Assembly: GCF_001936335.1 (NCBI RefSeq) | Contig: NZ_CP018888.1 | Span: forward strand, 434,001-498,000 | DNA: 64,000 bases | Direction: 5' to 3' | Source of the DNA: Amylolactobacillus amylophilus DSM 20533 = JCM 1125 | GTDB taxonomy: Bacteria > Bacillota > Bacilli > Lactobacillales > Lactobacillaceae | Shown here: piece after piece, positions 1-45,611 of the stretch | Numbering within the stretch: the first letter of the stretch is position 1 | Layout: the number at the start of each line of letters is the position of its first letter | Made by a program: the position numbers and the translations under genes | Notes under the pieces: generated by a model | Told to the model about the DNA's origin: nothing | Database searches by the model: none | Seen by the model: only the letters and a program-made list of their open reading frames with translations

Positions 1-171
1 TTGTTCCATCCAGTCCATTTGTGAAGCACCATCATGGGTTTCACCAATCTTGTGGATTTTACCAGTATAGTACAAAATACGTTCAGTAGTAGTGGTTTTA
101 CCGGCATCGATGTGGGCCATGATACCGATATTACGTGTTTTATCTAACGGAAATTCACGTTTATTTGCCAT
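1..171 (-). CDS. fusA: Elongation factor G, N-terminal 57 residues (runs off the left edge)
   Basis: EF-G is the ribosomal translocase, a GTPase that moves tRNA and mRNA after peptide transfer. Only the start of the gene is in the window. The visible protein begins [20 protein letters not shown] and holds the G1 P-loop AHIDAGKTT at residues 19-27, typical of EF-G. The ATG is preceded by AAAGGAG at a spacing of about 8 bases. The gene follows rpsG by 30 bases on the same strand and is the third member of the str operon (rpsL-rpsG-fusA). The rest of the G domain and domains II-V lie outside the window. Confidence 0.97.
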
Positions 172-26082: not shown

Positions 26083-26118
26083 ATCATCTGAGAGTAAACA
26101 ACCTAATTGGAGGATAAC

Positions 26119-26790
26119 ATGTTAATAAAATCACTCGTTCAAAAAAAGGATTATTTAACGACAGTTTCTGAGAACGTAACTTTAGCTGAGGCGTTAAAAG
26201 TTCTGGAAGACTCTGGCTTCCGCTGTATTCCTATCCTGGATGACACAGGAAAGATTTTCCGCGGTAATATCTATAAGATGCATATTTACCGCCATAAGTC
26301 ACAAGGCGGCGACATGAACATCCCAGTGACCTATCTCCTAAAGAATGCCACGAAGACCATACAGGTTAACTCACCGTTCTTCCAGGTATTCTTCAACATC
26401 AAAGACTTACCTTATATTGCTGTACTTGATGATGAGAGCGGCTTCTACGGTATCCTGACGCATGCCCGACTGCTCGATATGCTGTCTGAAGCGTGGAATG
26501 TCAAGGTCGGTAGTTACGTGTTGACCACCCTTTCTGGAGACGGGCAAGGCGACCTCTCGAAGATGGCCAAGATTATCTCGAAGTACACGTCCATTGCAGG
26601 ATGTTTGACCTTGGATGCAAAGCGGGACGAGTTCGTGCGCCGAACGCTCTTCACTTTGCCGGCTGGCGTCTCACGTGAGCTCTTAGATACTGTCGTAACC
26701 AAGCTTGAGAAAAAAGGATTCATTGTCTCAGAGATTGAAGACCTCCAATCCGGCCAAGCAATTAGGTCAGACGATCAACCATATGCTTAA
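26119..26790 (+). CDS. CBS-pair protein with C-terminal ACT-like region (candidate c-di-AMP binder)
   Basis: The 223-residue protein has two CBS motifs (about 1-140: TVSENVTLAEALKVLEDSGF and the second around FFNIKDLPYIAVLDDESGFY) followed by a region (about 150-215) with the beta-alpha-beta look of an ACT domain. CBS proteins of this layout in Listeria and relatives (CbpA/CbpB, DarB) bind cyclic di-AMP and signal to metabolic partners or Rel; that role here is inference. Start is the ATG at 26119 with GGAGG upstream; the in-frame TTG at 26107 is part of that site. Monocistronic between ldh and an ABC transporter. Confidence 0.75.
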   Translation: MLIKSLVQKKDYLTTVSENVTLAEALKVLEDSGFRCIPILDDTGKIFRGNIYKMHIYRHKSQGGDMNIPVTYLLKNATKTIQVNSPFFQVFFNIKDLPYIAVLDDESGFYGILTHARLLDMLSEAWNVKVGSYVLTTLSGDGQGDLSKMAKIISKYTSIAGCLTLDAKRDEFVRRTLFTLPAGVSRELLDTVVTKLEKKGFIVSEIEDLQSGQAIRSDDQPYA

Positions 26791-26809
26791 TCAGTCTTTT
26801 TCCAGAATG

Positions 26810-26852
26810 AAAAATCTGTTCTCCGTAAAGTTGGAGAACAGATTTTTATTTT
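26810..26852. terminator. Bidirectional terminator
   Basis: Fifteen-base perfect stem AAAAATCTGTTCTCC (26810-26824) / GGAGAACAGATTTTT (26833-26847) with an 8-base loop. It lies between the CBS gene and the convergent ABC permease gene, with A/T runs on both sides. Confidence 0.92.
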
Positions 26853-43259: not shown

Positions 43260-44882
<1,623 letters not shown>

Positions 44883-44933: not shown

Positions 44934-44986
44934 AAACAAAAAAAGTTCCCTAATTACTTAGGGAACTACGCGCCTGTAAGGTGCCC
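44934..44986 (-). promoter_or_regulatory. pyrG leader attenuator (reiterative-transcription type)
   Basis: The predicted transcript starts at 44986 with GGGC, as in B. subtilis pyrG, where low CTP stalls polymerase and adds extra G residues. Eighteen bases on, a terminator stem AGTTCCCTAA (complement of 44958-44967) / TTAGGGAACT (complement of 44944-44953) is followed by seven U. The 5' arm contains UUCCCU, which a poly-G 5' end could pair with, preventing termination. It also ends rpoE transcripts. Confidence 0.75.
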
Positions 44987-44993
44987 AAAAAGT

Positions 44994-45022
44994 ATAATAC
45001 AGTCCTAGAACGAAATCGTCAA
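44994..45022 (-). promoter_or_regulatory. Promoter of pyrG
   Basis: TTGACG (45017-45022), 17 bases, TATTAT (44994-44999). Seven bases separate the -10 from the GGGC start. The promoter begins 4 bases after the rpoE stop codon. Confidence 0.78.
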
Positions 45023-45026
45023 GGAT

Positions 45027-45611
45027 TTATTCTTCATCTTCGTCATCGGTGTCTGAATCAATCCCCAAATCAGGATCGTCATCATCCTCGCCTAAATCAG
45101 CGAGCTGACCTTCGATACCATCAGGTAACTCGTCTTCGTCTTCATCGTCGTCGACATCATCTTTTGCAACTTTCTCGAAGTCGTCATCATCCTCTTCGTC
45201 ATCGTCATCAACTGTGAGGTCATCGTCTTCTGGATCGTCCGCATCATAGTCAATGATGTCATCATCAACGTCCGCCAAGAATGCATTAACCTTTTTATTC
45301 TTCTTGCGTGGTGTTTCTTCTTCATCCTCAGGATGATTAACTTCTTCATCAACGGATTCATATGAGTACCATGACCGCAGTCCCCAAACATTATCCCCTA
45401 GGGAAATGAAACTTCCATCGATATTTAAGTCAGTATAAAATTGTGGTAAACGGTCACGAATTTCTTCGTCTTTAGTGTTTAAGAAATTCTGAATTGCATT
45501 CACTAGGTCAACGAAGGCCATTCTTTCATGGCGTTCTTCCAAGATAGCATGAGCAACTTCAATTAATGATAGTTCTTCAATTTTTTGATTCTTAAATTCC
45601 TCTAATCCCAC
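45027..45611 (-). CDS. rpoE: RNA polymerase delta subunit
   Basis: Firmicute-specific polymerase subunit that speeds recycling and tunes promoter sensitivity to initiating NTPs. The 194-residue protein has an N-terminal HARE-HTH fold (about 1-90, with [20 protein letters not shown]) and a long, nearly pure Asp/Glu C-terminal tail (from about 100; for example [19 protein letters not shown]). The start is GTG at 45611 with AAGGGA 9 bases upstream. It lies between a YwiB-like gene and pyrG. Confidence 0.95.

Follow-up and report, generated by a model that had tools for sequence, protein, structure and literature searches.

The CTP synthase gene pyrG of Bacillus subtilis is reportedly regulated by attenuation through CTP-sensitive reiterative transcription, as described by Meng, Turnbough and Switzer in 2004. 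Its attenuator, which is represented by the RNA family RF02371, is located upstream of pyrG and combines a GGGC transcription start with an intrinsic terminator that carries a C/U-rich 5′ arm. The Escherichia coli pyrBI, codBA and upp controls also rely on slippage at the start site to sense a nucleotide, but the nucleotide sensed is UTP instead of CTP, and they are not known to make use of a G-tract antiterminator. When B. subtilis pyrG transcripts carried four additional Gs at their 5′ end, pyrG mRNA rose about 325-fold (PMC4403831), and dRNA-seq of Streptococcus agalactiae and Streptococcus pyogenes, which belong to the same bacterial order as the species described here, detected non-templated, slipped Gs at the start of pyrG (PMC4448216, PMC6431027).

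The leader described here precedes pyrG in Amylolactobacillus amylophilus DSM 20533 and was studied within a stretch of 64,000 nucleotides (the window), to which all coordinates refer. It shares with the B. subtilis attenuator the GGGC start and, ahead of pyrG, an intrinsic terminator whose 5′ arm is rich in C and U. Since slippage has been reported in streptococci as well as in B. subtilis, the lineage of the window is flanked by experimental cases, whereas the window leader is described here from its sequence. It is most probably a pyrG attenuator like that of B. subtilis (probability about 0.9), and for this species we infer where transcription starts, that it slips there and that this depends on CTP.

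Layout and folding of the pyrG leader

The pyrG gene (43260–44879, minus strand; TIGR00337, 807 bits; NF003792) is followed by murA and preceded by rpoE (45027–45611, minus strand; TIGR04567), which encodes the RNA polymerase delta subunit with a long acidic tail. Judged by PyrG, the closest named relatives are Lapidilactobacillus and Companilactobacillus. The sequence contains a −35 hexamer, TTGACG (45017–45022, minus strand), four nucleotides past the rpoE stop codon, and after a 17-nt spacer a −10 hexamer, TATTAT (44994–44999, minus strand). The predicted transcription start, GGGC (+1 to +4; 44983–44986, minus strand), is assigned from sequence together with leader conservation and forms a putative slippage site in which C is the first non-G base, the window reading GGGCA at this point. 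The original prediction had placed +1 at a GGGC seven bases after a good −10, and the arrangement TATTAT-7-GGGC is indeed found at 44999–44983 on the minus strand. It had also located a terminator with UUCCCU in its 5′ arm 18 bases downstream, which proved correct, as the first G and the stem are 18 bases apart.

Sequence and folding identify the attenuator as an intrinsic terminator stem-loop (44944–44967, minus strand) that is composed of the 5′ arm AGUUCCCUAA, the loop GUAA and the 3′ arm UUAGGGAACU, with a stem of 10 bp of which 4 are GC pairs. The C/U tract UUCCCU within the 5′ arm (44960–44965, minus strand), identified from sequence and folding, is the proposed partner of the added Gs and is short, at 6 nt with 3 C. 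The terminator U tract (44937–44943, minus strand) ends at 44937, and the pyrG ATG at 44879 lies 57 nt beyond it. The RNA from +1 to +51 has a folding energy of −19.0 kcal/mol (z = −3.8), to which the terminator contributes most. Compared with B. subtilis and the RF02371 consensus, the spacer between GGGC and the arm is 17 nt as opposed to about 36, the arm is UUCCCU as opposed to CUCCCUUUC, and the stem in the window has the 10 bp given above.

It is proposed that RNA polymerase initiates at GGGC and that, when CTP is ample, C would be added at +4, the polymerase would leave the start and the terminator would end the transcript at about +50. When CTP is scarce the polymerase would pause after GGG, the nascent RNA would slip and extra Gs would be added before escape. 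The resulting 5′ G tract would pair with UUCCCU once the arm leaves the polymerase, the terminator would come too late and pyrG would be transcribed.

Thermodynamic predictions were made for window transcripts cut before the 3′ arm, in which UUCCCU pairs with the G tract at the 5′ end at a mean of 0.24 without extra Gs, 0.86 with three and 0.95 with nine. The median arm capture of 137 leaders is 0.23, 0.98, 0.97 and 0.98 for zero, three, six and nine extra Gs, and the RF02371 consensus, which served as a positive control, gives 0.36, 0.72, 1.00 and 0.99 for the same series. Extra Gs thus favour capture of the 5′ arm before the 3′ arm exists. In the full-length window RNA at equilibrium the terminator always folds, even when as many as 12 Gs are added (P = 1.00). 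As the finished terminator is the more stable structure at equilibrium, the switch must be kinetic, with capture taking place before the 3′ arm emerges. As is characteristic of a CTP-sensitive reiterative-transcription attenuator, the leader has a predicted GGG start 7 nt after the −10, exactly GGG followed by C, a terminator with a C/U arm and predicted capture ahead of the 3′ arm.

Conservation across Lactobacillales

The pyrG upstream regions of 160 Lactobacillales sequences, drawn from named loci, genomes and sequence stretches, were compared, a sample in which not all members are independent and some species occur twice. The element is present in 157 of the 160, of which 154 were found by a leader scan and three (L141, L142 and L218) by inspection. 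One further region, L191, has a matching attenuator and its promoter falls beyond the fetched stretch (1/160), and on inspection the element is absent from two of the 160, L149 and L232, the latter with a divergent pyrG. In L149 (genome G013, family f4) rpoE still adjoins pyrG, and the attenuator has been lost jointly with the GGGC start of the promoter.

To be picked up by the scan, a leader needed a run of three or more Gs close to a −10, together with a −35-like hexamer and a terminator; neither the precise number of Gs nor the base after them was prescribed. It found 161 leaders, among which are two records from Sporosarcina, four that are Izemoplasma-like or from Tenericutes, and the window counted twice. 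In every one of the leaders (161/161) the start is exactly GGG followed by C, and in 150 it lies 7 nt after the −10. A YTCCCY arm is present in 124 of the 161 pyrG leaders, compared with 1 of 61 other terminators in the loci of 37 relatives, none of which has an upstream −10/GGGC start; this control is based on terminators from relatives, and within the window just four terminators passed. A comparison of the GGGC start and the C/U arm among relatives had been suggested together with the original prediction, whose central claim, that the arrangement is that of B. subtilis pyrG, is supported in that every needed sequence feature is present and conserved across the order.

A single strict pattern consisting of the promoter, GGGC and a YTCCCT arm was matched by 208 of 395 Lactobacillales genomes, with 5 matches for the reversed-pattern control, and 208 is a lower bound because the fixed spacer range and arm of the pattern miss many true leaders. 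The possibility of more than one copy per genome was rejected, since none of the 395 genomes matches the strict pattern twice. Judging from these sequences, the window leader appears to be a compact form of a design that nearly all lactic acid bacteria and related organisms share. This would extend a textbook case, in which a metabolite is sensed by the polymerase itself with neither a protein nor an aptamer, to nearly a whole bacterial order.

Within the 1,610,352-base genome the pattern TTGA-18..20-TA...T-7-GGGC-8..38-YYCCCY has a single match, the pyrG leader, and its reversed control has none. The same promoter and GGGC pattern without the YYCCCY arm has 3 matches in the genome versus 5 for the control, and therefore promoter plus GGGC is not unusual in itself and it is the arm that makes the combination unique. 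Elsewhere in the window (26809–26850, plus strand) an ordinary end-of-gene terminator with the C/U-rich arm GUUCUCC is located behind an ORF (26107–26790) and has no GGGC start upstream. Its arm could also pair with poly-G, and hence a C/U arm alone is not diagnostic.

Among the alternatives, the one that survives best, although very unlikely, holds that the hairpin is merely the rpoE terminator, that the pyrG promoter is constitutive and that GGGC is fortuitous. A constitutive promoter gives no reason for the occurrence of GGG+C and a C/U arm in nearly all Lactobacillales, and a terminator placed between a promoter and its own gene would be unaccounted for. In favour of this explanation, rpoE ends 4 nt ahead of the pyrG −35, which makes the pyrG attenuator the first terminator behind rpoE, and this second role may well exist. 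Readthrough RNA from rpoE would bring no free 5′ G tract to the attenuator and is expected to end there, and the hairpin probably doubles as the rpoE terminator.

It is even less probable that GGG constitutes a GTP-sensing start, subject to initiating-nucleotide control and acting with no antiterminator. G-initiating promoters do respond to GTP in Bacilli, but this would leave both the C at +4 in all leaders and the C/U arm of the terminator unexplained.

The spacer hairpin SL1

An attenuator of the B. subtilis type is already known, and what is of interest beyond the original prediction, which had not noticed it, is a hairpin in the spacer, here termed SL1, and its loss at short spacers. SL1 lies between GGGC and the C/U arm in most leaders, with its outermost pair at +5 (e.g. 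L144, L033 and L177). A stem scoring at least 12 at +4/+5 occurs in 68 of 141 distinct leaders, as against 6.6 expected from dinucleotide shuffles. Among leaders scoring at least 9 the +5 pair is A-U in 45, U-A in 26, G-C in 10 and C-G in 1, with 3 G-U wobbles; the pairs were located by seeking a stem at +5, so that the shuffle comparison is the test. In a structure-free MAFFT alignment of 17 Lactobacillaceae leaders, 6 of the 7 SL1 pairs change on both sides, and 97.4% of the cells pair, a value matched by 0 of 500 shuffles and falling to 32–47% when the partner is slid by one column; the 17 leaders were hand-picked for having an SL1 of this sort, and sequences that are related may score above shuffles, which makes this strong, not unbiased, support. 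Taken from sequence comparison, these results support SL1 as a real and covarying hairpin.

The frequency of SL1 (score of at least 9) by spacer length is 2/22 below 20 nt, 11/17 at 20–25 nt, 10/12 at 26–33 nt, 50/62 at 34–44 nt and 14/24 at 45 nt or more. In the window, with its 17-nt spacer, and in L003, the second species of the same genus, SL1 is nearly lost and reduced to a mismatched GC(A)CC/GG(C)GC remnant. In the window this is a weak hairpin predicted by folding, GC(A)CCU-UAC-AGG(C)GC with an A-C mismatch (44970–44984, minus strand). The spacer of L003 reads GGGCACC...GGCGC and is equal in length to that of the window, and its arm, GCUCCCUAG, contains CUCCCU where the window has UUCCCU. 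In contrast, the family f4 leaders of the panel, to which the streptococcal cases are compared, have a ACCUCUUUUGAGGU-type SL1. In its structure line RF02371 comprises the terminator stem alone, without SL1, although a weak UCUU/AAGA hairpin at +5 is possible in its consensus. A description of SL1 was not found in the literature searched, which excluded the main papers (Meng 2004; Turnbough and Switzer 2008), and no claim of a first report is made.

When the 3′ arm of SL1 is blocked in the folds, arm capture falls merely from 0.95 to 0.89, and SL1 was therefore rejected as a strict requirement. This small drop also means that thermodynamics alone fails to account for SL1. A tentative suggestion, held at somewhat less than even odds, is that SL1 is a second selected RNA element that compacts the spacer so that the slipped G tract meets the arm quickly, or that hides nearby pyrimidines from the Gs, and that it was lost or shortened as unneeded at spacers of 17–19 nt (the genus of the window, and Lactobacillus). 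These functions are guesses, and SL1 may instead be a 5′ hairpin that stabilises the RNA. Natural spacers with and without SL1 would allow a direct test of the kinetics of the co-transcriptional switch.

A relay has also been considered, in which the added Gs would invade the 5′ arm of SL1 and the freed 3′ arm (AGGGA) would pair with the terminator arm. By inspection, leaders of family f2 (e.g. L177) and some of family f3 have UCCC/AGGGA-like SL1 arms that could pair with UCCCU. The SL1 of many leaders, however, contains no CCC (GCUUUAC/GUAAAGC), the window has no stable SL1, and in every leader the Gs could pair directly with the arm of the terminator, which makes the relay as improbable as the GTP-sensing start.

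Rfam models, PyrR sites and outlying leaders

The RF02371 model (PyrG_leader) scores 20.9 bits on the window, below its gathering score of 65, and aligns its start to an upstream GG, thereby misplacing +1 by 19 nt in the upstream direction. Over the 395 Lactobacillales genomes 96 reach an E of 0.001 and one passes the cut-off, which the B. subtilis genome exceeds; the threshold therefore seems to be tuned to Bacillus, and this public RNA model misses almost all Lactobacillales pyrG leaders. The second RF02371 hit of genome G006 was rejected as a further copy, being recognised as an A-rich terminator without a GGGC start.

The top weak cmscan match on the leader is RF00515, with 22 bits (E 0.25–0.37). 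PyrR-type attenuation, in which PyrR and UMP would bind the pyrG leader, is nevertheless the least credible explanation, as this match overlaps the promoter and is far under the gathering score of 54, the true PyrR sites of the genome (56.7 and 51.9 bits against the cut-off of 54) are located elsewhere, ahead of the uracil permease gene and of pyrF-pyrE (L239/L242 and L240/L243), and a PyrR study in Streptococcus pneumoniae used a pyrG reporter as its PyrR-independent negative control, with the limit that uridine addition does not test CTP limitation. Given reiterative transcription at pyrG, pyrimidine control in this genome would be split, PyrR sites serving the UMP branch and slippage governing the CTP step.

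Among more distant records (Lachnospiraceae and others) nearly all lack the element by the leader scan. Four records from Izemoplasma, Anaeroplasma-like organisms and Tenericutes (L047, L053, L057 and L079) combine GGGCACUCU starts and short spacers with a UUCUCC or UUCUUCC arm ahead of pyrG, which suggests that the switch reaches past Lactobacillales and Bacillus. The Izemoplasma-type leaders among them (L057 and L079) resemble the window in their GGGCACUCU start and GUUCUCC arm with a short spacer that lacks SL1, but they start 6 nt after the −10 as opposed to 7 nt in the window, and do not belong to Lactobacillales. In family f7 (L191 of genome G155, L192, L193 and L171) the attenuator can be located far upstream of pyrG or the spacer can be very long, and in L191 approximately 330 bases extend from the attenuator to the start codon.
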